IMG/VR virus record: IMGVR_UViG_3300042387_001124
Span: 1 to 36,759 of that record
Length of the DNA stretch: 36,759 nucleotides
Strand: one strand, 5' to 3'
DNA from: a virus
Positions 1,414-20,590 of the stretch are shown here, piece after piece (position 1 is the stretch's first letter; the number at the start of each line of letters is the position of its first letter). The position numbers were made by a program, and so were the translations under genes. The notes beneath the pieces were generated by a model. The model was given only the letters and a program-made list of their open reading frames with translations, was not told where the DNA came from and ran no database searches.

Positions 1414-2400
1414 TTATTCTCTGATTAGATCTAACGTAACACAATGAAATCCGCCGCCTAAGGTTCTTTGTTGTCTTCCAGGCAGCATAGCACAGTCAAT
1501 TCCGTGCTTTTCTAATTGTTTTCTTAAATTGTGTTGACCGTCTAAAAGAGCAACAAGACGAGGATTAACACTAAACAAGTTTATGTTTAACCACGGACTT
1601 GCATTGCAGTATCCTGGGTAGTGTCCAATATTTTCAGGTTCAGCTGCCCATATTACATCCCAAGTTTGTAATTTTTTAGGCAATTGATCAATGCTTTTTA
1701 TGCGACTAGGATTTAACAAAATTAATCCTTCTCTCAAAAAGGCCATAGTACTATCTAAGTGCATAAAACTATAGATATCTTTTAGTTTATGAACAGTTGC
1801 TTTATTTCCAACTAAATCTTGTAGATAATCTGCTCCTAGTTCATTACCACTATTACTCACGAGATAATAAAGATCGTCATTAGCACGTAAAATATTTGCT
1901 GCATCAAAACAGGGTTCGGCTTCTGTTAGAGCAAGTATATTTTTATTACCAATACAATTTGTATTGTATAACTCATCATTTCTATTAATTGTTTTTGAAA
2001 GGTATTTGATACCAAATTTCGTATAATCTTTGAATATATTATCCATTGCCAGATACTCATCTTTTCGAGATCGCAATGGTTGAGGAGTTGCTAATATTAA
2101 ATCATCATATATTAATACACTATCTCTTGGACAATAATTATAATATAAAGGCTTGACAGTTTTGTCAGGGCGAATAACTTCTACATTTTCTTTCTTTAGA
2201 AAATTACAAAAAATTTCTAAATCTTCATTCGCTTCGTCTATCACTTGTTGAGGGTAAGCACCTTGAGGAATTAACGATTCGCTTTCGAAGTGTGCATAAT
2301 TTACTACTCTTAGACTAGTATCAACAAGTGGAATTGTAGCATCGTCTGCTACACCAACTATTACTTTTTTAAGTGTACTCCACTCGTTCTTAGAAAGCAT
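1414..2400 (-). CDS. Amidinotransferase (glycine/inosamine-phosphate amidinotransferase family), copy 1
   Basis: This 328-residue protein belongs to the amidinotransferase family, which moves the amidino group of arginine to an amine through a covalent Cys-amidino intermediate. Visible landmarks are DEANEDLE (55-62), YCPRDS (89-94), EPCFDAANILR with the likely catalytic Asp166, VSNSGNELGA (181-190), MHLDST with the likely catalytic His214, and GGGFHC with the nucleophile Cys320. The length matches StrB-type and GATM-type enzymes. All three catalytic residues are present, so it should be active. The acceptor amine is unknown: the family includes both glycine and inosamine-phosphate enzymes. 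It overlaps the end of the aminotransferase gene by 11 bases, which suggests that the aminotransferase product is its acceptor. It is a distant paralogue of the amidinotransferase at 6021-7076. Confidence 0.9.
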   Translation of the reverse strand: MLSKNEWSTLKKVIVGVADDATIPLVDTSLRVVNYAHFESESLIPQGAYPQQVIDEANEDLEIFCNFLKKENVEVIRPDKTVKPLYYNYCPRDSVLIYDDLILATPQPLRSRKDEYLAMDNIFKDYTKFGIKYLSKTINRNDELYNTNCIGNKNILALTEAEPCFDAANILRANDDLYYLVSNSGNELGADYLQDLVGNKATVHKLKDIYSFMHLDSTMAFLREGLILLNPSRIKSIDQLPKKLQTWDVIWAAEPENIGHYPGYCNASPWLNINLFSVNPRLVALLDGQHNLRKQLEKHGIDCAMLPGRQQRTLGGGFHCVTLDLIRE

Positions 2401-2986
2401 GTTTAAATATATCCATTTTTCTTAAATCAGGATAATTTTTATACGACCATTTTGTCGGCGCCCTAGATTTAGCTTCAGGAAATTTTTCTAGCCCAAGCTG
2501 TGCTGTTTCGGGAGTCATATAGTAATGAAATCCTATAGTGTTTATATTTTGATCAGCCCAAGGAACTCCTCTTTCTCGGCCATCGTGAGCTATTTTTATC
2601 AAATGTTTATGTGCATATTGATCGTTTAGTAGAATCATTCCTCCACGACCAAGACTTAGATGTTTTTGGTGTTGAAAACTTAGACACATAAATTTTCCGG
2701 CAATGTAACTGTTAGCATTCCACAAAACTGCTGCATCTATAATGTCTGTATTGCCTAATTGATACCAATCTTTCCAGAGTTCATCGGTCCAATTCCACTT
2801 TATACCTAATTTTCTAAAAGTCATTGGAATTGACAAATAGGTATGACTAGGACAAGTTGATTCCCTAGTACCGTGCAATCGCAGACATAATTCGATGGCA
2901 TGTGTGCAAGAATCTGTGGCGACTGCATACGGAGCACCAAACCACTTAGCTATTGTTTCTTCAAATTGAGTAACTGTATTAAACAT
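2390..2986 (-). CDS. Short DegT/DnrJ/EryC1/StrS-type PLP aminotransferase
   Basis: This 198-residue protein matches the large domain of DegT-type sugar/cyclitol aminotransferases. Visible features are ATDSCTHAIELCL (23-35, the usual SGT-A-L region), CPSHTYLSIP (45-54), IIDAAV with Asp84 that would pair with the PLP pyridine, and SFQHQKHLSLGRGG with the likely PLP lysine Lys108. Family members are usually about 350-400 residues, so the C-terminal small domain is missing or strongly reduced. The frame is intact and ends inside the start of the amidinotransferase gene, so this looks like a compact form and not a recent frameshift. No Shine-Dalgarno sequence is visible, and a late-type box lies only 8 bases upstream of the ATG. 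By analogy with streptidine-type synthesis, it may make the amine that the downstream amidinotransferase uses. Confidence 0.82.
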   Translation of the reverse strand: MFNTVTQFEETIAKWFGAPYAVATDSCTHAIELCLRLHGTRESTCPSHTYLSIPMTFRKLGIKWNWTDELWKDWYQLGNTDIIDAAVLWNANSYIAGKFMCLSFQHQKHLSLGRGGMILLNDQYAHKHLIKIAHDGRERGVPWADQNINTIGFHYYMTPETAQLGLEKFPEAKSRAPTKWSYKNYPDLRKMDIFKHAF

Positions 2987-3323: not shown

Positions 3324-3897
3324 GCATAAGATAAATTATACAAATCTTTTTTTAGCGGGTTGGTATAATCCTGATATTACTATATGCGATGAATTGATAG
3401 AATATTATAAAAATTCTGAGTATAAAGCACCAGGAAAATCGTTTTATATTAATGAAAAGATCGTTGACAAGTCTGCCAAGGATAGTATCGATTGTATAAT
3501 ATCAGACAACGCACTTAAACAAAAATATATAGAATATCTTCAAAAAACAGTCGACTTATACATAACAAAATATCCTTATTGTAATTACTACGATCCATGG
3601 ACTATTGTCGAAAATATACAAATACAACATTATCCTATTGGCGGAGCATTTTTTTCTTGGCACACTGAACGTGGGACAGGAAAACGCTATTTAGATAGAC
3701 ATTTAGTTTTTATGACTTATTTGAATGATGTGACAGATCAAGGTGAAACAGAATTTTATCACCAAAATATTAAAATTAAACCTGAAAAAGGGTTAACTAT
3801 AATTTGGCCTGCTGATTGGACTTTTACTCACAGAGGGCTACCATCGCTTACACAAGAAAAATTTGTTGTAACTGGGTGGTTTAGTTATGTGTCTTAA
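3316..3897 (+). CDS. 2OG-Fe(II) oxygenase (prolyl-hydroxylase-like)
   Basis: This 193-residue protein has the double-stranded beta-helix core of 2-oxoglutarate/Fe(II) oxygenases in its C-terminal half. The pieces visible are YPIGGAFFSWHTE (106-118), RHLVFMTYLND (128-138), GETEFYHQ (143-150), GLTIIWPADWTFTHRG (159-174) and a final strand EKFVVTGWFSYV (181-192). The likely iron ligands are His116, Glu118 and His172, an HxE...H set in place of the commoner HxD...H, with Lys182 as a possible 2OG anchor. The N-terminal 95 residues are probably family-specific helices. It overlaps the small protein gene upstream by 8 bases and the convergent 3894 gene by 4 bases. The substrate is unknown; proteins of this kind are common in marine myoviruses and may hydroxylate a protein side chain. 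Confidence 0.85.
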   Translation: MYEHKINYTNLFLAGWYNPDITICDELIEYYKNSEYKAPGKSFYINEKIVDKSAKDSIDCIISDNALKQKYIEYLQKTVDLYITKYPYCNYYDPWTIVENIQIQHYPIGGAFFSWHTERGTGKRYLDRHLVFMTYLNDVTDQGETEFYHQNIKIKPEKGLTIIWPADWTFTHRGLPSLTQEKFVVTGWFSYVS

Positions 3898-4607
3898 TCA
3901 AAAGACTTTTTATTCCAAAATAATTTCTTATAGCCACCATACATAAACTGTTTAATAGCCATTGTAATTTTAAGTTGATTTTTTTCGTCGTGTTCCGATG
4001 CTTCCGATTGCCACGATTCTCGCTTAAACGGAATGATTTGATACATCGGTGTTCCTTTTTTAATTAGTCCAGAGAAATTTTCTTGTAAAAGGAATGGCAA
4101 ATTAGACCCGGCTTCTGATTGCTTAAATCCATCTGCATCAACTACACCAGCAAGTGTTTTAAATGGTAAAAGATCATGATTGAACGGATGAGTAATTATA
4201 CAACTATATCCCGGGGGTAGTTCAGGAAACCAAGGAGGATGCCAAGTAAAGTGATTCGTTAAATACCCATCAATTTTTGGATAAGAATTTGATACATGTT
4301 CTGAGCGTTCACTCATTATTTTAGGACCTGAGGCATAATAAAAAAGAGTCTTATCTTCTTTCTTTTCAATAACGATGTCGCACCATGTTTCTTGTATGTA
4401 CCCCATATGAAAAGAATCTAAAAAAGGCATACACAGTTTAAATGTAGCATTCGGTTTTCCATTCGCTGGGTTGAACTCTGGTTTTTTGGTGTAGAAAGGT
4501 GTTGCACTTTTATACCAATCTGGTATGTATTCAGAGGCGGGTTTTGGCGGATTAACCGTGTATTCAGATAGTTGATCTACAGGATTAAATTTTATTTTCT
4601 TTCTCAT
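3894..4607 (-). CDS. Conserved marine-phage-type protein of unknown function
   Basis: This 237-residue soluble protein has no signal peptide or membrane segment. Distinct stretches are PPKPASEYIPDWYK (20-33), HPPWFPELPPGYSCIITHPF (132-152 region), LAGVVDADGF (around 172-181) and GTPMYQIIPFKRESW (around 205-219). I recognise this pattern from uncharacterised proteins of marine phages and bacteria, possibly an existing DUF family (DUF6065 is a guess), but know of no function. Aromatic and proline content suggest a beta-rich fold. The ATG directly abuts the stop of the SGNH hydrolase gene, with no gap. It is the last gene of the long minus-strand run and meets the 2OG oxygenase gene tail to tail with a 4-base overlap. 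Confidence 0.75.
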   Translation of the reverse strand: MRKKIKFNPVDQLSEYTVNPPKPASEYIPDWYKSATPFYTKKPEFNPANGKPNATFKLCMPFLDSFHMGYIQETWCDIVIEKKEDKTLFYYASGPKIMSERSEHVSNSYPKIDGYLTNHFTWHPPWFPELPPGYSCIITHPFNHDLLPFKTLAGVVDADGFKQSEAGSNLPFLLQENFSGLIKKGTPMYQIIPFKRESWQSEASEHDEKNQLKITMAIKQFMYGGYKKLFWNKKSFD

Positions 4608-5516
4608 TTAAAATCCGATTGTTATACTTTTATCTTGTAAAGTTATTAGTTTATCTTCTTGTATTTTTTTCATTAAAATATTAGATAATGTAAAAAATTC
4701 TTCGGAAGAGTATTTTCCACTGTGTTTAAGTTTTTTAAATTTTTCAATTATAAAACTTCTAGAAGAGTCATGATTATACACGATATCGAGTAATGGTTTC
4801 AACTTCTCATTTAACCATAAATTGTGCATATAAGGAGTAGGATGCAAATCTACATAATTGTCTTTTTCGAATGTCCATATATCATTTTTATTTAATTTTA
4901 CAAACTCAAATAACGGATCGACCCATTTAGAATTTTCCCATATATGTTTTTCATAAATTCTGAATTCAGGAAATAGTTTCCAAATAGGCCATTCTTCAGA
5001 ATTTTTAATTATTTCAATTGCTGACTGATCTGACACTCCTATGTGTTCTCGTTTAGAAAATACTGTGTCATATCCTAAATTTCTAATATCCCCCAAGCTA
5101 GTCATAAGCCACGTGCAGCCAGCTGATTTAAGCAGTTCTTGAGCTAATATTATCATATTCAGAGTATGGAGTACAAACCCTCGTTCTGAAAATAATGCAT
5201 TTGCATGTTTTTTATTTTTATTGTAAAAACTTGAATCGTGATAAACAGCCCACCCATCTATTGCATTTTCTTTTTTGTTGAAGGTGTCTTTGTACCAATC
5301 ATTACGTATATGGCTTGACCATTGTATTATGACAACATCATCTTTGTTTATAACATTACGTGCATGACATTCTGATAATCTTTCTGCTATAGCTCTATTA
5401 CCTATCCCTGGTAATCCCCAATTTTGATATTCTTCGAACTCAAGAGATAAAAGATCTGCCCACGTTGGCCAATCGTAGTTTGTAAAACTACAACCAAAAA
5501 CAAATAACCTACTCAC
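4608..5516 (-). CDS. SGNH/GDSL-like hydrolase
   Basis: This 302-residue protein has SGNH-hydrolase blocks. FGCSFTN near the start places the likely nucleophile at Ser10. NWGLPGIGNRAIAERL (32-47) fits the Gly block, VVIIQWSSHIRNDWY (61-75) fits the block-III strand, and VDLHPTP (222-228) gives the Asp-His pair (Asp223, His225). The last 70 residues are Lys-rich and probably helical. Such enzymes remove or transfer acyl groups on sugars, lipids or proteins. In this context an O-acetyl esterase or acyltransferase acting on a glycan or on the product of the neighbouring enzymes is reasonable but unproven. Its start overlaps the end of the hydroxylase-like gene by 8 bases. Confidence 0.75.
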   Translation of the reverse strand: MSRLFVFGCSFTNYDWPTWADLLSLEFEEYQNWGLPGIGNRAIAERLSECHARNVINKDDVVIIQWSSHIRNDWYKDTFNKKENAIDGWAVYHDSSFYNKNKKHANALFSERGFVLHTLNMIILAQELLKSAGCTWLMTSLGDIRNLGYDTVFSKREHIGVSDQSAIEIIKNSEEWPIWKLFPEFRIYEKHIWENSKWVDPLFEFVKLNKNDIWTFEKDNYVDLHPTPYMHNLWLNEKLKPLLDIVYNHDSSRSFIIEKFKKLKHSGKYSSEEFFTLSNILMKKIQEDKLITLQDKSITIGF

Positions 5517-6021
5517 CTAATACTCCAGTTATCTGCATAGCATATCTCTTTTGAGTACTAAAATTGTAAAATGCATGAGGTGTATGGCCTGTCCACCCAA
5601 AACAATCACCTGCTTTCCAGAACGAATATACTTTATTTTCTATTTCTAATATTTGTCCTTCTATACCATCTTCTAACATCACAACTATTCTTATAATATT
5701 GTAATCGAAATTTAAATTATGAAGTTCTCTATATCTATCATATCTATCACTGTGTTTTGGAATAAACTGGCCTGGATTGAAAAGGTTGATTGCAATGCTT
5801 ATGTTTTTTAAGTACTGAAAACAAGGTTTGATATTTTCATACACACCTGCTGGCATAGGATTTGGTTCAAAATAATTATAAAGTGTTAAGGACTCGATAG
5901 AATGTCCTGCATCTACATATTTCTTGAGTAAATCCGATCCTCGGTATTCGGCACGTTTATAGTTTAAACTTTTGAAATCATCGATATTCCAAGCAGGGGA
6001 TATATGATTAAAAATTATCAT
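5509..6021 (-). CDS. Asp/Asn beta-hydroxylase-like oxygenase, copy 1
   Basis: I chose the ATG at 6021, which shares its A with the stop of the upstream amidinotransferase gene (TAATG), over an open extension to 6075 that would run 55 bases into that gene. The resulting 170-residue protein resembles aspartyl/asparaginyl-hydroxylase-type 2OG oxygenases. It has IPKHSDRYDRYR (87-98) with likely ligands His90 and Asp92, then IIRIVVMLEDG (109-119), GQILEIENKVYSFWKAGD (122-139), GHTPHAFYN with His149 or His146, and KRYAMQITG with Arg159 as a likely 2OG anchor. It lies directly after the amidinotransferase gene and shares motif order with the protein at 7952-8539, so the two are paralogues. The substrate may be a small molecule of the pathway or a protein residue. 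Confidence 0.72.
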   Translation of the reverse strand: MIIFNHISPAWNIDDFKSLNYKRAEYRGSDLLKKYVDAGHSIESLTLYNYFEPNPMPAGVYENIKPCFQYLKNISIAINLFNPGQFIPKHSDRYDRYRELHNLNFDYNIIRIVVMLEDGIEGQILEIENKVYSFWKAGDCFGWTGHTPHAFYNFSTQKRYAMQITGVLGE

Positions 6022-7076
6022 TATGAAAAGTAATCTTGTAACTCGCCGGTACGTTTTACATCTAAAGTAGCACAATGGAATCCTCCACTCATTGTCCTAG
6101 CTTGGCGGCAAGGCAATCCAATAGTTTCAATTCCGTGCTTATCTAGAATACGGCGCAATTCATTTTGTTCAATGTCGCATATTACTAGGTTTTCATTCAC
6201 GCTTAAAAAGTTTAAACCAATATATGGACTGCACGGAGCTACTCCAGTATTTGCGGCAGGCACATGTAATTGATCTCCAGTAACCCAAATTTTATCCCAA
6301 TCTTTAAAAATTGGTGGGTACCAATTTTCGTTTAATCTATCCGCATTAAACAACACTAATCCTGGTCGTAAAGGTAAAACAGTAGAATCAAAATGTGCAA
6401 AACTATAATATCGTTCAGCTACATGTAATTTATATCCTCTTGGTTCAAGTATACTCTTCAACCATTTAAATCCTAGCAGATTTCCGCTGTTAGATACTTG
6501 ACATAATAAATCTTTTCCTAATCTTACAACATTTGGCGCATCAAAAATAATTTCTTTATCAACTAAAGTTGCTTCGGTTCTGTCTTCTAACTGATAATTA
6601 TCGTCAGTTAAAATAGGTTTAGGAGCACAAATCCATTCTGTACCTTCCTGCATCCATTCGTATAAATGTTTATAGTATGCTCTAGTTTCAAAATATCTAG
6701 CCCTCATTGGACTTGGACATTCTATAATTAAATTGTCAAGGGGTAACAACAAATCTCTAGGACAGAATGTATACCACCCTGTAGTCTCCCACTCCGGGGT
6801 ACTGAATTTTTTCCTATGATCTATACTATCTGGTCGTCGTACTTTAACTCCTAGAGTTTTTAGAGTATCGGACAATCTTTCTAAATCTTCGTTAGCTTCG
6901 TCTTTTATCCACTGTTCGTGTTCAATGCCGTCAAATTGTTTTATGTCGTCATACTTTTCTCCGCCATAGATAAAACTGTGTGTGCTTTTATTCATTGTAG
7001 GATGCATACTAAAATCAGCAGTTCCTATTATGATTTCCTCAAGTGGATCCCAATCATTATGTGATTGTACGGGCAT
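6021..7076 (-). CDS. Amidinotransferase (glycine/inosamine-phosphate amidinotransferase family), copy 2
   Basis: This 351-residue protein is a full-length amidinotransferase that uses arginine as amidino donor. Landmarks are DEANEDLERL (59-68), FCPRDLLLP (104-112), MRARYFETRAYY (124-135), IIFDAPNVVRLG with likely catalytic Asp179, VSNSGNLLGFKW (194-205), FAHFDSTVLPLRPG with His228, and SGGFHC with nucleophile Cys335. The MRARYFE stretch and the length are closer to typical GATM/StrB enzymes than copy 1 is. Its start overlaps the upstream aminotransferase gene by 20 bases, the same gene order as in the pair at 1414-2986. The acceptor is probably the amine made by that aminotransferase, but its identity is not visible. 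Confidence 0.92.
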   Translation of the reverse strand: MPVQSHNDWDPLEEIIIGTADFSMHPTMNKSTHSFIYGGEKYDDIKQFDGIEHEQWIKDEANEDLERLSDTLKTLGVKVRRPDSIDHRKKFSTPEWETTGWYTFCPRDLLLPLDNLIIECPSPMRARYFETRAYYKHLYEWMQEGTEWICAPKPILTDDNYQLEDRTEATLVDKEIIFDAPNVVRLGKDLLCQVSNSGNLLGFKWLKSILEPRGYKLHVAERYYSFAHFDSTVLPLRPGLVLFNADRLNENWYPPIFKDWDKIWVTGDQLHVPAANTGVAPCSPYIGLNFLSVNENLVICDIEQNELRRILDKHGIETIGLPCRQARTMSGGFHCATLDVKRTGELQDYFS

Positions 7077-7959
7077 AATCTAGTCCTTTAATAAATTGTT
7101 TATGAAAACTTAATCTGTTAGTAGTGCTGCCACGATTGTATTGATTCCATTCTTCGCCGCCGATTCCAAACAAAACTGTTTTAGTAGGCTTTACAGATAA
7201 GACATTACAAAAATCGAGCTGTTTCTGCATGTATTTAGACGAAATATAATCTGGAGAGAAATTTTCTAGAAATTTCATACCTAAAGAAGCACCAATTTTA
7301 TTATTGTAACTTATTTTATGGTAAACAAACATAGTGTCGTCGTCGTCAATGCGTGTATATCTCATACCAATTCGGGCATATGCTACTGGAAATGTTTTAC
7401 TTAAACTAAAAGTTATGTCTGTAATACACGAATATGCAAAATCAAATTCAATATTTCTACAAATTCCAAAATATGCACAATCTACTAGTACAGGTACATT
7501 AAGTGAATTGCATTTTCTCATCAATTCGTGATAATTGAGATGTATGTCTCCTGTATCTGCAAATGGTAGACTAATAATTACTGCATCGTTAGGAAGAATA
7601 TCGTCGTCTTCTAACCATGCCCAATTATATTCCGCTCGCCATGCCAATTTATGATACATATATTCGCCTTTAAAACATCTAAATCTGCGATTATGATTTC
7701 TTAAATAAAATTTATCAAACCCTTCAGTTGTTCCATTACTGTAACACTTAAATTGAAACTGATCCAATCCAATCAAAGTGTTAGCTGCTGTGCTACGAAT
7801 CCAACGATCGTAGGTATGTAAGTATTCGTCAATAACAGTATTATTATGAACACATCGTAAGTCAAATGGCTCTCTTAAAATTTTTAAAGTTTCTGGATCT
7901 TCGATAGCGAATGCACTACCAAAGTCTAAGCTTCTTTTATCGTTAGGTATTTTATTCAT
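7057..7959 (-). CDS. PLP-dependent aminotransferase, fold type I
   Basis: This 300-residue protein has class I/II aminotransferase landmarks. CYSNGTTEGFDKF (72-84) fits the glycine-rich phosphate loop. VPVLVDCAYFG (155-165) has Asp160 in the place that pairs with the PLP nitrogen. DITFSLSKTFPVAYARIG (181-198) has Lys188 as the probable Schiff-base lysine and Arg196 as a phosphate contact. TTNRLSFH near the C-terminus may hold the substrate-carboxylate Arg. It is shorter than the usual 380-420 residues, so it is a reduced member. It differs clearly from the DegT-type protein at 2390-2986, so the two aminotransferase-amidinotransferase pairs use different aminotransferase classes. It overlaps its neighbours by 8 bases upstream and 20 downstream. 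The keto substrate is unknown. Confidence 0.8.
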   Translation of the reverse strand: MNKIPNDKRSLDFGSAFAIEDPETLKILREPFDLRCVHNNTVIDEYLHTYDRWIRSTAANTLIGLDQFQFKCYSNGTTEGFDKFYLRNHNRRFRCFKGEYMYHKLAWRAEYNWAWLEDDDILPNDAVIISLPFADTGDIHLNYHELMRKCNSLNVPVLVDCAYFGICRNIEFDFAYSCITDITFSLSKTFPVAYARIGMRYTRIDDDDTMFVYHKISYNNKIGASLGMKFLENFSPDYISSKYMQKQLDFCNVLSVKPTKTVLFGIGGEEWNQYNRGSTTNRLSFHKQFIKGLDYARTIT

Positions 7960-8539
7960 CTAAATATGATATTTGCATAGCAATTATATCGGATTTACCA
8001 AAATTACAAGTTCCATGCCATGCAAAACTTTCCCATGTATATACATCTCCGGCAGTCCAATTTCCTAATAATTCATTTCCTATCTGTATTACTTGTCCTA
8101 CGTCCCAGTCATTCATTAAAATTACAGACCTTTTAATCTTCTCAGCGTATTCAATCGTAAGATTTTTTCTATGAACGAATGTAGCATATGTATCAAAGTG
8201 CCACACTAACATATGCCCTGGAGTAATTTTTATAAAATTATAGCTCAATGTCTTATAAGGAAATTTGTCTAATATAGTTTTTAAATTTTCATTTAATGAC
8301 GGGCAGTGTGACATTAAATGCCAAGTACTTTGATCAGGAATTTTCCATTCTTTATGAATTTCTTCTAGGTCACGCTTCATATCAGTAGTAAAACTATCCC
8401 ACGGATCGTCATCAGGTACTTCCTTAGTTTGGACAGTTTCTATCCAATCAAAATTTAAATCGTTACTGGTCCATGTACAATCTATTCTAAATTTGACTGC
8501 ATTGTATTTTGTTAAATCTTTAAACTTCTCTAAGTCCAT
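7952..8539 (-). CDS. Asp/Asn beta-hydroxylase-like oxygenase, copy 2
   Basis: This 195-residue protein is a paralogue of the product of 5509-6021. Both share the order H-x-D strand, a VILMND or VVMLED turn, a GQVIQIGN or GQILEIEN strand, a W-x-AGD turn, a second His and a final AMQI strand. Here the likely iron ligands are His114 and Asp116 (VWHFDTY) and His175 (AWHGTCNF). The second part of the motif, GNWTAGDVYTW (159-169), is typical of cupin-like oxygenases of the aspartyl/asparaginyl hydroxylase group. The Arg that anchors 2OG in copy 1 is not obvious. The gene overlaps the radical SAM gene upstream by 20 bases and the aminotransferase gene by 8. The substrate is unknown, and a non-catalytic role cannot be excluded. 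Confidence 0.7.
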   Translation of the reverse strand: MDLEKFKDLTKYNAVKFRIDCTWTSNDLNFDWIETVQTKEVPDDDPWDSFTTDMKRDLEEIHKEWKIPDQSTWHLMSHCPSLNENLKTILDKFPYKTLSYNFIKITPGHMLVWHFDTYATFVHRKNLTIEYAEKIKRSVILMNDWDVGQVIQIGNELLGNWTAGDVYTWESFAWHGTCNFGKSDIIAMQISYLDE

Positions 8540-9470
8540 ATAAATGCCTTAAAATATATTCTTTATTTGGAATAGTTATATCATTTAATAATAATGAAAA
8601 TTGTGTCTTTTCCATTTCTGATAAATTTACAACATCTAATTTCTTAGGATATGTCAGTATATTGGTGTTCCAAACGTATTGATTTTGATTAATAAAATTG
8701 GCTAGATCTTTAACTCCGTGCCAATTATTGACATGTAATACTGAATTTATCTCTAAGGAAAAACTCGTCGACTTTAATTGTTCTAGGAACTTAATTATGT
8801 CAGACCATTTACTGCCTTTTCTTACTTTTTCATTTAGGTCTGCAACTCCATCAATACTTACGTAAATTTTAACGCTCTTGAATGCGTTTAAAACTAAAAT
8901 TTCTTTCTCGCTCAAAAGAAAAGTTCCATTAGTATAATAAATTACTGATACATTTTCAGGATTAGATATTTCTTTGAGAAAGCGGATATGCTTGTTAGTC
9001 ATTAACGGCTCTCCCCCTAAAAATAAAATTTTATCTATACTTTTAGGAAGATTTATAAACTCCGTCGTTGTTAAAATATTAATTTTTTTATTGGTAGGAT
9101 TTTTAATGTTAGCCCATGTAGAGCTCCATTCTTCCCAACATCCATCGCATGCCAAGTTACATATATTGTCAAAACCAATTTCTAAAAATTTTAATTCAAC
9201 TTTATTAGTAGAATATTCTTTATTAAATTTTTGTCTTAAACTTTCTTTTCCTTGATTTTCTTCAGTATAACATTTTTCGCATTCTGGAAATCGAACTCCA
9301 TTTAAAGAACCTTCTCTAAGTTTATTATATTCTTCAATATGTAAGACAGCACTTACATCTCCCGTAAAGGTAGCTATGGGTTGTTTAAATCGGCAACAAG
9401 GAAAAATACGATTTCCAGGGCGAATGTTAGTATGCACCCAAAATGCTGAACATTTACTCATGTTGGCCAT
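8520..9470 (-). CDS. Radical SAM protein with N-terminal cysteine (SPASM/twitch-like) segment
   Basis: This 316-residue protein has a radical SAM core placed after an N-terminal cysteine segment. The SAM-cluster motif is CNLACDGC (Cys104, 108, 111), followed by ILFLGGEPLM (about 148-157) and YYTNGTF (about 178-184), which are the usual SAM-binding features. The N-terminal part has Cys7, FPCCRFKQ with Cys25-26, and ECEKC with Cys64 and Cys67, which could bind an auxiliary Fe-S cluster as SPASM/twitch domains do; in most family members that domain is C-terminal. It differs from the four other radical SAM proteins in this run. Start: ATG at 9470, although ATG at 9461 is possible. It overlaps the upstream gene by 13 bases. 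It probably modifies a peptide or a small molecule through a radical; the substrate is not visible. Confidence 0.88.
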   Translation of the reverse strand: MANMSKCSAFWVHTNIRPGNRIFPCCRFKQPIATFTGDVSAVLHIEEYNKLREGSLNGVRFPECEKCYTEENQGKESLRQKFNKEYSTNKVELKFLEIGFDNICNLACDGCWEEWSSTWANIKNPTNKKINILTTTEFINLPKSIDKILFLGGEPLMTNKHIRFLKEISNPENVSVIYYTNGTFLLSEKEILVLNAFKSVKIYVSIDGVADLNEKVRKGSKWSDIIKFLEQLKSTSFSLEINSVLHVNNWHGVKDLANFINQNQYVWNTNILTYPKKLDVVNLSEMEKTQFSLLLNDITIPNKEYILRHLYGLREV

Positions 9471-10768
9471 TTCTCTGTAAGTGTTTTTATTACACGATAG
9501 TTATGTTCTAGTATAGGAGTCATTGATTGATACAAATTCCGAAGTGTCGTTATAGGTAAATTATCGATAAAATCAATAACTTTAAAAATTTTAATCAATC
9601 GCTTTTCATGATTTTCTTCTCTATCATACCCTTCATCCCAAAAATTTTCAAAGGTTTTAAAACCGTATTTTTTTAAGTATTCTAATGTATAAGGAGGAGC
9701 AACTAGTATAAAAGGTTTATGTCTATAAATTGCGTTTAATGTTTTCTCGCTAAATGTAGAAATCGGATGACTATATTTTGTTTCGTTTATAACGGCACAA
9801 AAACAACTATCATACTCGCTATTAGGAGCATAATCGAAGGACATTTCAAAATTAGGATTTGGGATAGCAGAATTCATTCCTATGACTAAAGACCCCATAT
9901 TATCTAATTTTTGTAAATTTGTTATCAACTTATTAAAAATTTTAAAATTATTTTTATGCCAGGACGATAAATCAAACCATAATTGATTTTTTAGGGATCC
10001 GTAAATAGATTTTTTTTGATCAAAAGACATTATTGAATTTTTATCTAATAGATATGCAGCGATTAAATGTCTTACTGCTTTATATTTTCCATTAGCAGAT
10101 AAAAATTTATGAGTTATTTGATTAGCAGTTCTTGGATGAATATAACTTATTGGTTTATCCAGTATTCTTTTAGCTACACTTACAACATACATATTCCTAA
10201 CAGCTAAATTCATTGTTGGATATTGTTTCTGTAAATATTTTTGAACATTATAATCTCCACAATAAACAGTGACATTATTGAGATTATTTTTGTCAATAAA
10301 CTGTTTTATACTGTCTAGTTCAAATGAATAAATTGTTTTTAAATTTTCTTGAGTGGATTCAAATCCTCTAATACTTGAACCATATTTTTTGTAATATTCA
10401 TTTGTACTTGCTTTTGTAGGAGGGCCTTCGAGATAGTTTTTTATTGTTGGACCTGTATTAAGATACAGATCCTCAAAGAGATAAATGCATAGGCCTTGTG
10501 TATTAAAAATCTTAATATGATCAGGTTCGCAAATTAAATCTTCTATTTGTTTTAAAGAACCGCATCCTGTACAAACAAAATGTGGTTTTGATTCTTCTGC
10601 CAAACATGTATCTTTAAAAATAGTATTATAAAAGTCAATAAAACTGTTTACTCCAATTACACTCAATGAAGATTCGCTGAAAATAGAACCGTTTTTTAAC
10701 AGTAACCTATTTTCAATAGCAGGATTCATAAAATTTTGAAAGACTACGTGACTAAAAAACTCATCCAT
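9458..10768 (-). CDS. Glycosyltransferase-like protein, copy 1 of a paralogous pair
   Basis: This 436-residue protein has no signal peptide or membrane segment. The C-terminal part contains FSEKTLNAIYRHKPFILVAP, then EYLKKYGFKTFENFWDEGYD, then a helix with ENHEKRLIKIF. This S/TEKT...PF...GF-TF...DE-YD pattern occurs in a family common in marine phages and bacteria and resembles the donor-binding half of GT-B transferases such as exostosin or fucosyltransferase types. In the middle, FLSANGKYKAVRHLIAAYLL takes the place of the N-R-R-x-R segment seen in relatives. The N-terminal 120 residues (CTGCGSL and ICIYLFEDLYLN-like strands) are family-specific. It is a clear tandem paralogue of the next gene upstream and overlaps it by 8 bases. 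The glycosyltransferase assignment is by motif resemblance only. Confidence 0.55.
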   Translation of the reverse strand: MDEFFSHVVFQNFMNPAIENRLLLKNGSIFSESSLSVIGVNSFIDFYNTIFKDTCLAEESKPHFVCTGCGSLKQIEDLICEPDHIKIFNTQGLCIYLFEDLYLNTGPTIKNYLEGPPTKASTNEYYKKYGSSIRGFESTQENLKTIYSFELDSIKQFIDKNNLNNVTVYCGDYNVQKYLQKQYPTMNLAVRNMYVVSVAKRILDKPISYIHPRTANQITHKFLSANGKYKAVRHLIAAYLLDKNSIMSFDQKKSIYGSLKNQLWFDLSSWHKNNFKIFNKLITNLQKLDNMGSLVIGMNSAIPNPNFEMSFDYAPNSEYDSCFCAVINETKYSHPISTFSEKTLNAIYRHKPFILVAPPYTLEYLKKYGFKTFENFWDEGYDREENHEKRLIKIFKVIDFIDNLPITTLRNLYQSMTPILEHNYRVIKTLTEKWPT

Positions 10769-12140
10769 TATACTTAAACTTTGAAATATTTTGTATTATA
10801 CGATAATTATGTTCTAAAATAGGTAACATCTTAATATATAGTTCTTTTAATTCGTCTATTGAAAAACTATTAATGTAATCTATAATACGAAATATTTTGA
10901 TTAGACGAGATTCGTGATTTTCTTCTTGATCATAACTTTCGTCCCAAAATTCGTCAAATGTTTGTATTCCGTATGATTGCATATATTCTAAAGTGCGTGG
11001 AGGTGCTACTAATATAAAAGGCCGAAACGATTTTATAGCATTTAATGTTTTTTCACTAAACTGCCCCATAGGGTATGCAAATCTTGCTTCCGTTATCACC
11101 GAACAAAAGCATTGTTGATAACTACTAACTGGCACTGGTAAAGATTCTAATGCTACTTCGCTTTCTATGTTTGTATCTATAGACAAAGAGTTTGGCATTA
11201 TATTAAGTTGATGTCTTATTTTAGAATAAATTTCAGGGCAATCAGTCTTCCATTTGTCTAAATCAAACCATAAATAATTTTCTAATTTACCCCAAATTGG
11301 TATAGATTTATCTTTCCTGTCGTCAAAAATAACAAATGGCGAATCTTCAATTTTAGTTTGATACGAGCATAATGCAGACATATTTAATAGATAGGCTGCT
11401 ACTAACTGACGATAACCGTCATACCTTCTATTTCCGCACCAAAATTTGTATAATATAGTTTCCGATGACGGTGGTGTGCTATAACTGTTATATTCGTATG
11501 ATGTAAATCTACTATCCGAATGTCTAAATAGCGAAGTTAGAAATATGTCTTGAGTAGCAAGTGTCATTTCTGGATACGAATTTTTGAAATGTTTTTCGAT
11601 ATTATAATCTCCAGTATACACAGTTACTTTTTTTAAGTTGTTTTTAATTATAAATTTTTTTAAATTTTCAAATTCGAAACAATACATTTTAGAAATGTTA
11701 TCATAAGTTGATTCAAATCCAACAACACTTGGTTTAATTATATTAAAAAGCTCTTCTCGAGAAGAATCAAATTTTAAAGAATTTACAAATGGACGTTTAC
11801 TATCGCTGATATCTATAAAAATAGTTTCATAAAGATATATTTCTAAACCGACTGTATTAAGATAGTTTTTGATATCTTCAGAATACATAATTTTGTCTAA
11901 GTGCGGCCAGCTTCCGCAGGCTGTAATAATTAAATAAGGAACATTATAATTTTTTAAAAAAGAATCAGAGTAATAATCTTTATAATAATCAAAAAACGTA
12001 TACTTGGGGTACCTATGATTATTTGATTCAGATAAAAATTTTCCGTCATGAAATATAATACGGTTTTCTCGGTCAGGTAATGACAAATTTTCGTATACGA
12101 TTCCAAAACAACTTTCTTCTTTTGTATCAAATATTTTCAT
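10761..12140 (-). CDS. Glycosyltransferase-like protein, copy 2 of a paralogous pair
   Basis: This 459-residue protein is a paralogue of the 9458-10768 product. It shares VTVYTGDYNIEKHF (versus VTVYCGDYNVQKYL), KFWCGNRRYDGYRQLVAAYL, FSEKTLNAIKSFRPFILVAP and a GIQTFDEFWDESYDQEENHE-like stretch. The NRRYDGYR segment is better conserved here than in the sister, fitting the R-rich site of the wider family, so this may be the more typical copy. The N-terminus (CFGIVYENLSLPDRENRI) also lines up with that of the sister. Its start overlaps the end of the upstream radical SAM gene by 14 bases. A role in adding sugars to a small molecule, glycan or protein fits the context but is inferred. Confidence 0.55.
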   Translation of the reverse strand: MKIFDTKEESCFGIVYENLSLPDRENRIIFHDGKFLSESNNHRYPKYTFFDYYKDYYSDSFLKNYNVPYLIITACGSWPHLDKIMYSEDIKNYLNTVGLEIYLYETIFIDISDSKRPFVNSLKFDSSREELFNIIKPSVVGFESTYDNISKMYCFEFENLKKFIIKNNLKKVTVYTGDYNIEKHFKNSYPEMTLATQDIFLTSLFRHSDSRFTSYEYNSYSTPPSSETILYKFWCGNRRYDGYRQLVAAYLLNMSALCSYQTKIEDSPFVIFDDRKDKSIPIWGKLENYLWFDLDKWKTDCPEIYSKIRHQLNIMPNSLSIDTNIESEVALESLPVPVSSYQQCFCSVITEARFAYPMGQFSEKTLNAIKSFRPFILVAPPRTLEYMQSYGIQTFDEFWDESYDQEENHESRLIKIFRIIDYINSFSIDELKELYIKMLPILEHNYRIIQNISKFKYNG

Positions 12141-13041
12141 TTTTTATTGCGATAACATTTTCTTTAGAATGTTTTATTGAAAAAAGTTTATTGTTATTAC
12201 ACATATCGCAAAGATCAATGTGTTTATTAGAAGTTTCTACAAAGTGTTTTAATTCAGTTACAGTAGGATTTTTTAAATTAAGTGCTTTATAATTTAAATA
12301 TTTTGACCAGTCGTTATCGTCGAGTTGATTTTTTATTTTTAAAATTTTAGGAAGAATTGCAAACCACGAACACTTGTATAATTTAGATTCGTATAGTAAA
12401 TGACAATTTGGCATCGAACATCCATTTTTATAAGATCCTTCGGGGTCATTTGTTGCAAAAGGTTTTATTTTATTTTCATTATTTGTATAATAACAGCTAT
12501 AAAAATATTCTGCGTCTGCTATTCTAACATTGAATGTGCTAGAAGAATATAATTCTACACTGTCTTGAACTACACCCCATTTAATTGTACTCTTTTTATT
12601 CATATGATTAGTTTCGAGGAATTTCTCTAGTGTTTTATGAAATTTCTTAGCTATGATGTCGTCTGAGAACAATTTAAAATGATTGGTGATATCAATCACG
12701 CAAGGGTGAAAAGTTTTGCAAAATTCTATTAGTTTATTCTGAAATTTATCTAGCAGTAGTCCGTTTGTACAGATTCCGATAGTGCTATTAGGAAATTTTA
12801 TTCTTATATGTTCGACAATCTTTTCTATAGAATCCCAATATAAAAATGCTTCTCCTCCCATCAGATCAAACTCATTTACATCGGCATAATTGGAAAGATC
12901 ATCGATACTTTCAAATATCGAATCTAATGTTGGATCGTGCTCGTAATTTTTTATAATGTCTGACGCCGAAGTGCATCCATTACAGGATAAATTGCATCGA
13001 TGTCCATAAAAAATTTCCACCATTGGCAGTGATATTTTCAT
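12127..13041 (-). CDS. Radical SAM protein with twitch/SPASM-like C-terminal cysteines (divergent fourth copy)
   Basis: This 304-residue protein has the SAM-cluster motif CNLSCNGC (Cys16, 20, 23), the SAM-binding turn MGGEAF (61-66) and a CTNGLLLD strand (91-98). The C-terminal part has Cys208, Cys213, Cys224 and a CDMC pair (Cys278, Cys281), the same layout as in the three downstream-type paralogues of the tandem set, and would hold an auxiliary Fe-S cluster. GGEAF replaces GGEPF, and the sequence between the motifs differs widely, so it has probably taken a different substrate or step. It joins the upstream radical SAM gene by a TAATG overlap and the glycosyltransferase-like gene by 14 bases. 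The family does radical chemistry on peptides or on sugars and cyclitols; the substrate is unknown. Confidence 0.9.
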   Translation of the reverse strand: MKISLPMVEIFYGHRCNLSCNGCTSASDIIKNYEHDPTLDSIFESIDDLSNYADVNEFDLMGGEAFLYWDSIEKIVEHIRIKFPNSTIGICTNGLLLDKFQNKLIEFCKTFHPCVIDITNHFKLFSDDIIAKKFHKTLEKFLETNHMNKKSTIKWGVVQDSVELYSSSTFNVRIADAEYFYSCYYTNNENKIKPFATNDPEGSYKNGCSMPNCHLLYESKLYKCSWFAILPKILKIKNQLDDNDWSKYLNYKALNLKNPTVTELKHFVETSNKHIDLCDMCNNNKLFSIKHSKENVIAIKNENI

Positions 13042-13898
13042 TAAAACTTTACCTTACTTTTTGACAATGGCCAAATTGGCTTAATAATTTTTCTTTCTGC
13101 ACATAGTTGACATTGTTTTATATAAGTTTGTATTTCATTAAAAAATTGTACCAGTTTATCTTCCGAATCAAATGGATCAGCGGGCACATATGAATTTAAA
13201 AGGTCTGCTCCTTCTTGTTCAAATTGAAATTGATTTGTCAGATCTGAAGCGATTGCGGTCAAATAGCATTTATATATTTTACCTTTCATAAAAAAGTGCG
13301 ATGGTCCACATTCTTGCATACAGAGGTCGTGTGCTTTAACTGGATCACTTCTTCTAAAGAAGGTTATTTTATTTTCTATTTTTTCTGTTGATGCTTTAAA
13401 AAAAACATAAGTGTTATATAGTTTTATTACATTTCGATCATTTAAAATATAATTTGTTACTGATCCATTGACAACTTTAGTTGCATTAATGAGGGCGGAT
13501 ATCTTGTTTATAGATAGTTCTATGCTATTTCTTAATGCAGGATCATGTACACATACATCAAAAGAAAATCCTTTGTTAATTATTTCTATAGCAAGGTCAA
13601 TATTATTCTGAATGTACGTTCCATTGGTGCTTATTCTAAAATTTTTAGTAGAAGTAAAGTATTTCGAAACTTGATTGACCCAATCAATTAATTTTGGATT
13701 TGCAAAAGGTTCGCCTCCTATTAAATTTATAGTATCTACATCTAACTTCTTACTCCATTCTATATAATAATCTTCATAATCTTTCCAAAATAAATGACCC
13801 TTAAAATTTCTATTGTTATAAGAATCACAATTTTCACATGTTAAATTACATACATGTGTTACATGAAAAAACATTTCTTTTAAGTAAATTTTTTTCAT
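13041..13898 (-). CDS. Radical SAM protein with twitch-like C-terminal cysteines (tandem copy 3)
   Basis: This 285-residue radical SAM protein has CNLTCENC (Cys17, 21, 24), IGGEPFANP (60-68) and ISTNGTY (89-95). The C-terminal cysteines are Cys193, Cys197, Cys211 and the CQLC pair (Cys263, Cys266), a spacing like the auxiliary-cluster site of twitch-domain enzymes such as BtrN. The tail PIWPLSKSK is shared with its two tandem neighbours. Conserved HDP (118-120) and RRSDP (182-186) segments among the three copies may be substrate-site elements. It starts inside the end of the preceding copy by a 4-base ATGA overlap. With 285-286 residues in each of the three, they are recent-looking duplicates that have kept every cysteine. 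Confidence 0.92.
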   Translation of the reverse strand: MKKIYLKEMFFHVTHVCNLTCENCDSYNNRNFKGHLFWKDYEDYYIEWSKKLDVDTINLIGGEPFANPKLIDWVNQVSKYFTSTKNFRISTNGTYIQNNIDLAIEIINKGFSFDVCVHDPALRNSIELSINKISALINATKVVNGSVTNYILNDRNVIKLYNTYVFFKASTEKIENKITFFRRSDPVKAHDLCMQECGPSHFFMKGKIYKCYLTAIASDLTNQFQFEQEGADLLNSYVPADPFDSEDKLVQFFNEIQTYIKQCQLCAERKIIKPIWPLSKSKVKF

Positions 13899-14755
13899 AC
13901 TAAGTTAGTTTTCAATTTAGATAATGGCCATATTTGTTTGACTGTGTTTGTCTCTGTACATAATCTACATTGTTCTATAGGATTTGGTAAATTTTCTATC
14001 CATTCTTTAATAATATGTTCTTCGTCGAATGGTGAACACGATTTGTATTTTAATAATAATTCTTTTGCTCGAGGTTCGACCTCGAATTGATTACATAGTG
14101 GTTTTGAAACTGCGGTTAAAAAACATTTATATAATCTTCCTTCCATAAATGTGTAACAATATCCACACTCTCCATGAGATTTAGATGGATCACTATCATG
14201 CATATAGATTATATTATTTTTTAAGCTACGAAGACTTTTTTTAGAAAACACATATTTTTTATCTAATTTTGCTATTTTTCGAGAGCCTATGTAAAAAATA
14301 TCACAATACTCACTACTTTTTTCTTTTCTGATATTTTTAAAAATTGAAAATATTTCTTTTAAATTTTCTTCTATTTCATGAAATAAGCTAGGATCGTGTA
14401 CATTAATGTCTAGCCATATATTTTGTCTTAATAACTCTTGACATTCTTTAATTTTGTGTTTTAGATATGTACCATTAGTTGCAATGTCAATTTCTTTAAG
14501 ATTGGGCCATAAGGATTTTATTGACATAGTCCAATCAATTAATTTTGGATTTGTAAATGGCTCGCCGCCTATAATAGTTAAACTGTTCAGTTCTAGTTTT
14601 TTACTCCACTTTTTAAAATATGCTTCGTAATCTTTGAAATAATAATGCCCTTTAAATTTTAAATTATTATAAGTAATACAATTTTCACATGTCAGATTAC
14701 ACACATTTGTTATGTATATTTGAACGTTTTCATCTAAACGATACATTGTTGTCAT
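13895..14755 (-). CDS. Radical SAM protein with twitch-like C-terminal cysteines (tandem copy 2)
   Basis: This 286-residue radical SAM protein is a paralogue of both tandem neighbours. The SAM-cluster motif is CNLTCENC (Cys19, 23, 26), followed by IGGEPFTNPKLIDW (62-75) and IATNGTYLKH (91-100). Auxiliary cysteines are Cys197, Cys200, Cys211 and CRLC (Cys263, Cys266). Where the sisters have an RRSDP segment it has MHDSDPSKSHGECGYC, so the first auxiliary pair is C-x2-C here and C-x3-C in the sisters. That small difference may reflect a changed substrate pocket or cluster site. It ends in IWPLSKLK as the sisters do. It is joined to both neighbours by 4-base ATGA overlaps, so translation of the set should be coupled and near-stoichiometric. 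Confidence 0.92.
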   Translation of the reverse strand: MTTMYRLDENVQIYITNVCNLTCENCITYNNLKFKGHYYFKDYEAYFKKWSKKLELNSLTIIGGEPFTNPKLIDWTMSIKSLWPNLKEIDIATNGTYLKHKIKECQELLRQNIWLDINVHDPSLFHEIEENLKEIFSIFKNIRKEKSSEYCDIFYIGSRKIAKLDKKYVFSKKSLRSLKNNIIYMHDSDPSKSHGECGYCYTFMEGRLYKCFLTAVSKPLCNQFEVEPRAKELLLKYKSCSPFDEEHIIKEWIENLPNPIEQCRLCTETNTVKQIWPLSKLKTNLV

Positions 14756-15612
14756 AACTCAATCTTCTTTTTAGCCAATGGCCATATCGGTACTATTATT
14801 TCTTTTTCTGGACAAAGTTGACAAGCATCGATATGATTGTCTAACTCCCTAAAAAATCTGTCTAGATTTTCTGTTGTATCAAAAGGATCTGCAGAATTAT
14901 ATTTTTTTAGCAAATTAATACCGCGTGTTTCGATTTTAAATTGTGACATTAAGTCTTTAGAAATAGCAGTAAAACTACATTTATATATTTTTCCTTTGTG
15001 AAAAACTACGTTAGGAACGCATGTACTCATGCAATATGTATGTGCTTTAACAGGGTCACTTCTTCTAAAAAATGTTGTTTTATTTTCTATTTTATACATA
15101 GAATTTGAGCGGAATACAGTGGCTTCCCAAATTCTTGCTATCTTTTTACCGTTCGCTTCAAAGATTATCGTTGTATTTGTTTTATATTTTTTAAAGTTAA
15201 AAACTGATAAAATATTTTCTAAAGTTTCTTCTATCTCATTTCTAAATGACGGATCGTGAATACTAATATCTAACCAGAATCCTTGTTTTATAATTTCTCT
15301 TGATAAATCTATATTGTGTTTTAAGTATGTGCCATTTGTGCTTATATTAAAATTTTCTACATCTTTAAAATGTGTTTTTAATGATTCAACCCATGTCATT
15401 AAATCAGGATTAGTATATGGTTCGCCGCCAAAGATGTTAACTTCATTTAATCGAATTTTTTTTGACCATTCGATATACATGTCTGCGTGATCTTTCCAAT
15501 AAAAATGATTTTTAAAATTTCTGTTACTATATACATCACAATTATTACACGTCAAATTACAAACATTTGTGATATGGAACACACCTTGTGTTCTGAAATA
15601 TTTTTTTATCAT
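14752..15612 (-). CDS. Radical SAM protein with twitch-like C-terminal cysteines (tandem copy 1)
   Basis: I chose the ATG at 15612, which overlaps the stop of the preceding gene as ATGA, over a TTG five codons earlier. The 286-residue product has CNLTCNNC (Cys18, 22, 25), FGGEPYTNP (61-69) and ISTNGTYLKH (90-99). Auxiliary cysteines are Cys194, Cys198, Cys212 and CQLC (Cys264, Cys267), again resembling a twitch domain. The tail PIWPLAKKK matches the other two copies. It is the first of the radical SAM genes in transcription order and directly follows two small beta-rich proteins, one of which could be its substrate or partner. The reaction cannot be told from the motif alone; peptide modification and cyclitol or sugar oxidation are both known in relatives. 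Confidence 0.92.
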   Translation of the reverse strand: MIKKYFRTQGVFHITNVCNLTCNNCDVYSNRNFKNHFYWKDHADMYIEWSKKIRLNEVNIFGGEPYTNPDLMTWVESLKTHFKDVENFNISTNGTYLKHNIDLSREIIKQGFWLDISIHDPSFRNEIEETLENILSVFNFKKYKTNTTIIFEANGKKIARIWEATVFRSNSMYKIENKTTFFRRSDPVKAHTYCMSTCVPNVVFHKGKIYKCSFTAISKDLMSQFKIETRGINLLKKYNSADPFDTTENLDRFFRELDNHIDACQLCPEKEIIVPIWPLAKKKIEL

Positions 15613-16106
15613 TTTTTGTAAAAACAAAAAATAGGAGAATCGGCATATGTTGCATTTATTTTTACAGAGTTTCCTGCCGCAATTCTTGTCGATGATAATT
15701 GATTTATAGAGATATCATTTATTGTTATTCCTGGAATCAAAGGTATAATTATTTTTTCGTTGTCGTCTATGTCTAATTTTTTTTCTGTTGTTACAGTTAT
15801 TATATCTGCTTCATATATGCTCTCGTCACTCGCTGCAAATGTAACTGCATAAAAATCTTCGGCGCCGGCTGTCCACTTGGTATCAATTCCTTTAATTGGT
15901 CTAAGGTCTGCTAAAACGTCTACAAAAATATCATAATTTCCTTCATACCCATTCATTGTATATTCTATTTTAACATTACCTGCTAATAAGTATAACCATT
16001 GTATTTCCTGTCTTTCTCCAGAATTTAAATATCCTGTTACTGTGTTTGCTGTTCCATGTATAAAAGAAACAGTGAAATCTCTAGCATGTTTTTTTGATAG
16101 TTTCAT
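15609..16106 (-). CDS. Small beta-rich, cupin-like protein of unknown function (paralogue A)
   Basis: This 165-residue protein is made mostly of short beta-type segments with many Ile, Thr, Asn and Asp residues, no signal peptide and a single Cys near the end. It shares WLYLLAGNVKIEY (38-50), a DLRP turn, and a final ISINQLSSTRIAAGNSVKIN-like strand with the protein upstream, which has WIYILEGELFIES and a PKGKSVKFK strand, so the two are paralogues. The arrangement recalls small cupin-type barrels, but no metal-binding His set is evident, so enzymatic activity is doubtful. A late-type box lies 27 bases upstream of its ATG. It is joined to the first radical SAM gene by a 4-base overlap, which makes it a candidate partner, scaffold or target of those enzymes. 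Confidence 0.65.
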   Translation of the reverse strand: MKLSKKHARDFTVSFIHGTANTVTGYLNSGERQEIQWLYLLAGNVKIEYTMNGYEGNYDIFVDVLADLRPIKGIDTKWTAGAEDFYAVTFAASDESIYEADIITVTTEKKLDIDDNEKIIIPLIPGITINDISINQLSSTRIAAGNSVKINATYADSPIFCFYKK

Positions 16107-16141: not shown

Positions 16142-16645
16142 TTAAGTGTTTATCAATAGAATGTGATGAGAATTATTGTCAAGATTTTTAAACTTGACTG
16201 ATTTTCCTTTTGGTAGAATTACTATATTTTTAGTGCTTAATGGCTTGTCTGAATTTGTAAATTCTAAATTTTTGACCAGAGGCAGAATATACGAAATTGA
16301 TGTATCCGAAGAGATAATATTTGTATCTTTTAAATTTTTTACTGAGCAACAACATTTTGAAGAAAATATTAATAAGCAAGCACACCCAGTAATACCAGCG
16401 GTTATCTTAATAAATCCTTCCGAAAACGCTCTAAGATCGTTTAATTTATTATTAGTTACAAAACTTGTTAAATTTTTAGATTTTGCACTTTCTATAAACA
16501 ACTCACCTTCTAAAATATAAATCCAGGATAATTCTCCTTCGTCTATATCATCGATATTTAAAGCATTAATTTCTAATGATTCTTGTGAAAATAAACATAT
16601 ACGCTCTACTCGAATATTATCAATCTGATTTCTTTTGCGTATCAT
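16142..16645 (-). CDS. Small beta-rich, cupin-like protein of unknown function (paralogue B)
   Basis: I favour the ATG at 16645 over a TTG at 16663. The product is 167 residues and related to the next protein: it shares SWIYILEGELFIES, an NDLRAFSEGF turn and a final KGKSVKFKNLDNNSHHILLIN strand. It has a cluster of cysteines in GCACLLIFSSKCCC (five Cys in about 14 residues), absent from the paralogue. That could be a metal site, disulphides, or a modification site for the radical SAM proteins encoded downstream. No catalytic motif is recognised. It overlaps the end of the 16620-17030 gene by 26 bases. Its function is unknown; the pairing with its paralogue and the position before the radical SAM genes are the only clues. 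Confidence 0.6.
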   Translation of the reverse strand: MIRKRNQIDNIRVERICLFSQESLEINALNIDDIDEGELSWIYILEGELFIESAKSKNLTSFVTNNKLNDLRAFSEGFIKITAGITGCACLLIFSSKCCCSVKNLKDTNIISSDTSISYILPLVKNLEFTNSDKPLSTKNIVILPKGKSVKFKNLDNNSHHILLINT

Positions 16646-20582: not shown

Positions 20583-20590
20583 TACTTATA
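20583..20590 (-). promoter_or_regulatory. Weak late-type promoter box (TATAAGTA)
   Basis: On the minus strand TATAAGTA differs by one base from TATAAATA and lies 19 bases before the ATG of the 20240-20563 gene, with a GGAG site between. It overlaps the stop region of the giant fibre gene. The changed base lies in the part of the box that is usually constant, so it is less certain than the other boxes. Confidence 0.3.

Follow-up and report, generated by a model that had tools for sequence, protein, structure and literature searches.

Why a marine virus of bacteria should carry three radical SAM genes of nearly equal length side by side, and what reaction their products might catalyze, is the question raised by IMG/VR virus record IMGVR_UViG_3300042387_001124, of which positions 1 to 36,759 (36,759 nucleotides; hereafter the window) were analyzed.

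Three radical SAM paralogues and their cysteine plan

The three genes (A, B, and C; Table 1) are adjacent on the minus strand and encode paralogues of 285–286 residues, as a first-pass annotation made from the DNA alone had described. The ATG at 15612 was taken as the start of A (286 aa); in the list of open reading frames, it appears in a longer, TTG-initiated form whose end is at 15627. In a profile search, A, B, C, and two further proteins (D and E) exceeded the cut-off of PF04055. Pairwise identity was 50% for A–C, 43% for A–B, and 41% for B–C. The motifs CNLTC-x-NC, GGEP, HDP, and SDP ascribed to the trio are real in the alignment, and TNG is also common to all three. The joints A–B and B–C, as well as that between A and the gene upstream, are 4-base ATGA overlaps; the annotation had extended this to all joints, but the C–D joint is a 1-base TAATG.

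A, B, and C were found without a single difference in four further IMG/VR contigs (L006–L009) and are thus intact in five contigs. Because the copies are identical there, the tandem is not an assembly artefact, and for the same reason no pN/pS could be obtained. Rough dN/dS values among A, B, and C were 0.23–0.43 with dS near saturation, suggesting purifying selection and that each copy is kept functional. The annotation had read the three intact copies as implying separate substrates or steps; the dN/dS values speak for retained function but do not imply differing substrates, and separate substrates or steps may nevertheless be what the copies serve.

The N-terminal CX3CX2C (C18, C22, and C25 in A) and the C-terminal C194, C212, C264, and C267 (A numbering) were invariant in 85/85 distinct full-length viral relatives, as were GGE, one Asn, and one His (H119), the only His of the family that is invariant although HDP occurs in A, B, and C. 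Of the five C-terminal cysteines previously pointed out, four are therefore conserved and the fifth is variable. The twitch pattern (CX9-15GX4C, a gap, then CX2C) is exact in A and C. In B, a 4-residue deletion makes the first ligand spacing 4 residues shorter (CX8GX4C), and in D, Ser replaces the Gly. The N_Twi_rSAM profile (NF033640; cut-off 170 bits) was reached by E only; C scored 25.4 bits, and A and B were absent among the listed matches.

A model of A was built with AlphaFold2 from a 37-row alignment (two GenBank-record rows left out) and was confident nearly to the C terminus (pLDDT 95.2, pTM 0.91). In VIA-align, the best match was SpeY (PDB 7wzv, 7wzx, and 7x0b; Z 20.4, 248 residues, 3.0 Å), a twitch radical SAM dehydrogenase of spectinomycin biosynthesis, followed by BtrN (Z 14.7, 211 residues, 3.9 Å), whereas SuiB, viperin, SkfB, MoaA, and anSME all scored 11.8 or less; the overall fold of A is thus of the SpeY/BtrN type. 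SpeY was also first in Foldseek (1.8e-10 vs 4.8e-5 for the next match) and, among PDB sequences, matched the family profile best (5e-16). The alignment to SpeY spans the whole chain and that to BtrN nearly the whole chain, and, at the level of the fold, nothing speaks against a C-terminal domain that could place the four cysteines, which stand in twitch order, around a cluster. These results make it almost certain that A, B, and C are twitch radical SAM proteins, with a predicted auxiliary Fe-S cluster. The likeness to BtrN noticed earlier holds for the fold, but the nearest solved structure is SpeY, and A is not recognizable as a BtrN orthologue, given a profile E-value of only 0.035, 15% identity, and Pfam searches of the window that showed no DOI synthase.

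A gap-free block of fourteen genes

The tandem continues into a fourth related copy, D, which shares the same cysteine plan, and A–D belong to a gap-free block of fourteen minus-strand genes running from 16106 down to 3894, in which 12 of the 13 joints overlap. The order is the 165-aa protein, A, B, C, D, the 459-aa and 436-aa paralogues, E, a suspected Fe/2OG protein, and a PLP-type protein, followed by a StrB-like amidinotransferase, an Asp-hydroxylase-like protein, a suspected SGNH hydrolase, and the 237-aa protein. The best VIA matches of the 459-aa model were nearly all glycosyltransferases, mostly GT-B (Z 8–10.3); Foldseek alone gave nothing below 1e-3 with this model. The PLP and Fe/2OG assignments are weak. 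A second StrB-like gene lies beyond the block. When StrB was set against AGAT, HsvA, or SxtG, both amidinotransferases proved much nearer StrB than AGAT, and by similarity both are StrB-type enzymes, for which inosamine phosphate is the predicted substrate.

Table 1 Genes of the radical SAM island in the window.
Feature	Position	Strand	Description	Evidence
165-aa protein	15609..16106	(-)	First gene of the gap-free block	ATGA overlap with A
rSAM A	14752..15612	(-)	286 aa, SpeY/BtrN-like twitch radical SAM protein	PF04055 3.5e-11; model; invariant Cys
rSAM B	13895..14755	(-)	286 aa, paralogue branching apart from A + C	Alignment; tree; PF04055 9.5e-9
rSAM C	13041..13898	(-)	285 aa, sister of A (99/96)	Alignment; tree; PF04055 2.5e-7
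rSAM D	12127..13041	(-)	304 aa, distant copy with the same C-terminal cysteine plan	26% identity to A; best PDB sequence match SpeY, 2.8e-6
GT copy 1	10761..12140	(-)	459 aa, GT-B-like glycosyltransferase, unnamed family	Model pLDDT 77.5
GT copy 2	9458..10768	(-)	436 aa, GT-B-like paralogue	39% identity to copy 1 (alignment)
rSAM E	8520..9470	(-)	316 aa, radical SAM protein of another family, with an NF033640-type twitch domain	208.7 bits, cut-off 170
Fe/2OG	7952..8539	(-)	195 aa, suspected Fe/2OG oxygenase-like protein	No Pfam match; residue pattern only
PLP	7057..7959	(-)	300 aa, probable PLP aminotransferase-like protein	Weak match to NF006967 (valine-pyruvate transaminase), 0.0014
StrB-like	6021..7076	(-)	StrB-like inosamine-phosphate amidinotransferase	1bwd StrB 5e-88; AGAT about 9e-58 (8e-60 in the comparison with AGAT, HsvA, or SxtG)
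Asp hydroxylase-like	5509..6021	(-)	Asp/Asn beta-hydroxylase-like protein, ATG at 6021	PF05118 0.032, under its cut-off; TAATG joint
SGNH	4608..5516	(-)	Suspected SGNH-type hydrolase	No Pfam match; family from reading the sequence; beside GT-like genes in L098–L101 too
237-aa protein	3894..4607	(-)	Last gene of the gap-free block	No Pfam match
DegT	2390..2986	(-)	Short DegT/StrS-type aminotransferase (mini-aminotransferase)	PF01041 2.4e-17
StrB-like 2	1414..2400	(-)	Second StrB-like amidinotransferase	1bwd StrB 3e-66 vs AGAT 4e-36

No cyclase was seen within the window, which is itself a fragment, and a scan for promoters and terminators returned sites no more numerous than in shuffles. The island is flanked by tail-fibre-like and T4-like structural genes, as seen in a longer contig of this virus. 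Two very large tail-type proteins (28804–34488 and 20586–28775) have repeated N-terminal segments; the 1894-aa tail-type protein is seemingly a paralogue of the larger one (41% over ca. 1190 residues against contigs with the larger gene). The two proteins upstream of A (15609–16106, 165 aa; 16142–16606, 154 aa) share a weakly similar 50-residue stretch (36%), and the searches matched neither to a family.

Relatives and their neighborhoods

A first scan of IMG/VR found 214 relatives, and a second scan added more. In the tree, A and C pair as sisters (99/96) within a clade of 11 rows that also holds B and members from L010, L012, L013, L016, and L017; two family copies are present in several of these. 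B branches elsewhere in this clade, and its position fits a divergence of roles; D lies on a long branch and its placement is unsure. The remaining 24 rows consist mostly of single genes, many of them near iscU and iscA. No close relative was found in GenBank phages (best full-length match 24%), and a pattern scan for cellular relatives gave only weak N-terminal matches, so that there is no bacterial operon from which to read function.

The gene iscU lies within 700 bp in ca. 46 of 77 relatives' loci. In one locus (L024:9508–11187), iscU, the radical SAM gene, and iscA follow one another with overlapping ends, as if the phage brought its own Fe-S assembly for the radical SAM enzyme. The idea that the family always travels with cyclitol genes was rejected, as most relatives are single genes without them. 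Besides a family member, L010 encodes a StrB homologue, a DegT-type enzyme, and an EEVS-like cyclase whose best PDB match is 4p53 (5e-77). A RuBisCO-like protein, the EEVS-like sugar-phosphate cyclase, a nucleotidyltransferase, and a fructosamine-kinase-like protein stand in a row there (L010:2109–6449), and this row is conserved in L147, L148, L151, and L152. In L152, the cassette of cyclase, StrB, and DegT genes occurs without the family radical SAM gene at that spot; therefore, the radical SAM gene is not obligatory to the cassette. The amidinotransferase loci L091–L101 are likewise mostly without a family member. A short DegT-type aminotransferase and a StrB-like amidinotransferase are recurrent near neighbors (L091, L095–L097, L100, L101, and window 1414–2986), and in marine phages this pair often comes with an Asp-hydroxylase-like gene.

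Candidate pathway and known systems

BtrN oxidizes an aminocyclitol alcohol via hydrogen-atom abstraction, and its fully ligated auxiliary cluster is the likely electron acceptor (PMC9012708, PMC6231123); twitch similarity as such is a poor guide to function (PMC6231123). We propose, as a plausible but tentative assignment, that A, B, and C, together with D, are dehydrogenases oxidizing a C–OH group of a sugar or cyclitol that is later aminated, guanidinylated, and transferred. By analogy with BtrN, these enzymes would cleave SAM at the N-terminal [4Fe-4S] cluster, and the 5′-deoxyadenosyl radical would take a hydrogen from the OH-bearing carbon; the second electron would pass to the four-cysteine auxiliary cluster, and a ketone would result. 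In this operon, the likely substrate would be a sugar, amino-sugar, or cyclitol. The ketone may be aminated by the PLP-type enzymes, the product guanidinylated by the StrB-like amidinotransferases, with hydroxylation by the Fe/2OG-type proteins, and the two GT-B-like glycosyltransferases would transfer it, the acceptor probably being a glycan of the virion or host surface. Each of the three copies may act on a different position or intermediate.

The sugar or cyclitol substrate is proposed from the operon content and from two other phage islands, those of Synechococcus phage S-SCSM2R and L010; against it, most relatives are single, lack cyclitol genes, and often stand beside iscU or iscA. The cyclase cassette that does without the radical SAM gene (L152) and the many solitary relatives therefore temper our confidence in the explanation as a whole.

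Alternatively, the three enzymes might act, in the manner of SPASM/twitch maturases, on a protein or peptide of the phage or its host (from the tail, the baseplate, or elsewhere), at three sites or on three targets, with the glycosylation genes decorating tail fibres independently. The location of the island between tail-fibre and T4-like structural genes, the single-copy relatives whose neighbors are structural and nucleotide-metabolism genes but no sugar genes, and the many known twitch/SPASM enzymes that work on peptides (PMC6231123) agree with such a role, but A has no N-terminal peptide-binding domain (the first strand starts at residue 5 of the model), SuiB, SkfB, and CteB reach only Z 11–12 against 20 for SpeY, and no precursor-like small ORF was recognized. 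We consider it rather unlikely. It is improbable that the copies are a redundant amplification for dosage, all catalyzing the same reaction: their equal length, their adjacency, and the sisterhood of A and C would suit it, but not an identity as low as 41–50%, the near-saturated dS under purifying selection, or the separate branching of B. DNA hypermodification in phages draws on radical SAM and PLP enzymes, and viperin-like enzymes appear in the structure list (Z ca. 11), but with lysine 2,3-aminomutase at only Z 7.8, no hydroxymethylase or base kinase noticed in the window, and a glycosylation-type operon, a nucleotide or nucleobase product for hypermodification or as a nucleoside antimetabolite is very unlikely.

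The dehydrogenase reading has oxygen-sensitive iron-sulphur enzymes placed beside sugar-attaching and guanidine-adding ones, which hints at a virus that makes an unusual, decorated sugar. Its fullest form is that marine phages encode a pathway, akin to aminoglycoside-antibiotic chemistry, to an unusual oxidized, aminated, and guanidinylated sugar or cyclitol, in which tandem SpeY-like dehydrogenases each oxidize a different position before transfer to a virion or host glycan; taken whole, this is unlikely. If true, it would bring aminoglycoside-type sugar chemistry to tailed phages, and anaerobic-type radical chemistry is unexpected in marine phages. The structural placement next to SpeY and BtrN, in a block whose genes are translationally coupled and include StrB-like and glycosyltransferase-like ones, offers a concrete, testable pathway.

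SpeY and BtrN, the best fold matches of A, are both twitch dehydrogenases of aminocyclitol antibiotics. SpeY shares with A the whole-chain fold, CX3CX2C, a similar length, and C...GX4C ahead of the C-terminal cluster site. However, the identity is 16%, and the active sites differ, because the invariant H119 aligns with Tyr in SpeY. BtrN (PDB 4m7t), the 2-deoxy-scyllo-inosamine dehydrogenase of butirosin biosynthesis, likewise has a four-cysteine twitch site with CX2C. The gene block at 230–236 kb of Synechococcus phage S-SCSM2R encodes a SpeY-like radical SAM protein (best PDB sequence match SpeY, 5.7e-7) along with glycosyltransferases, a DegT-type enzyme, a 2OG oxygenase, and a protein annotated as an inosamine amidinotransferase; unlike the window, it has a single radical SAM gene, whose product is 24% identical to A, and different glycosyltransferases.

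Marine T4-like genomes carry up to 12 radical SAM genes plus iscU or A-type carrier genes (PMC5332604), whereas no Isc gene is present in the window; in the section consulted, the radical SAM genes are given neither an enzyme type nor a link to a StrB-like pathway. In Campylobacter phages, an exchangeable module of five radical SAM genes and an amidinotransferase was described in 2010 with no function known (PMC2853527), and CP220, CPt10, and F379 have, as here, adjacent radical SAM genes, an amidinotransferase, and NDP-sugar transferase-like genes, there beside baseplate genes (PMC2853527). The Campylobacter proteins were rejected as members of the same family; they fall into other groups, mostly SPASM-like, and match the profiles weakly or not at all. 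In the open-licence papers searched, no report linked a phage radical SAM protein to SpeY or BtrN. Phage modules of multiple radical SAM genes with an amidinotransferase were thus already known; new are the assignment to the SpeY/BtrN type, the expansion in tandem, and the coupled operon.
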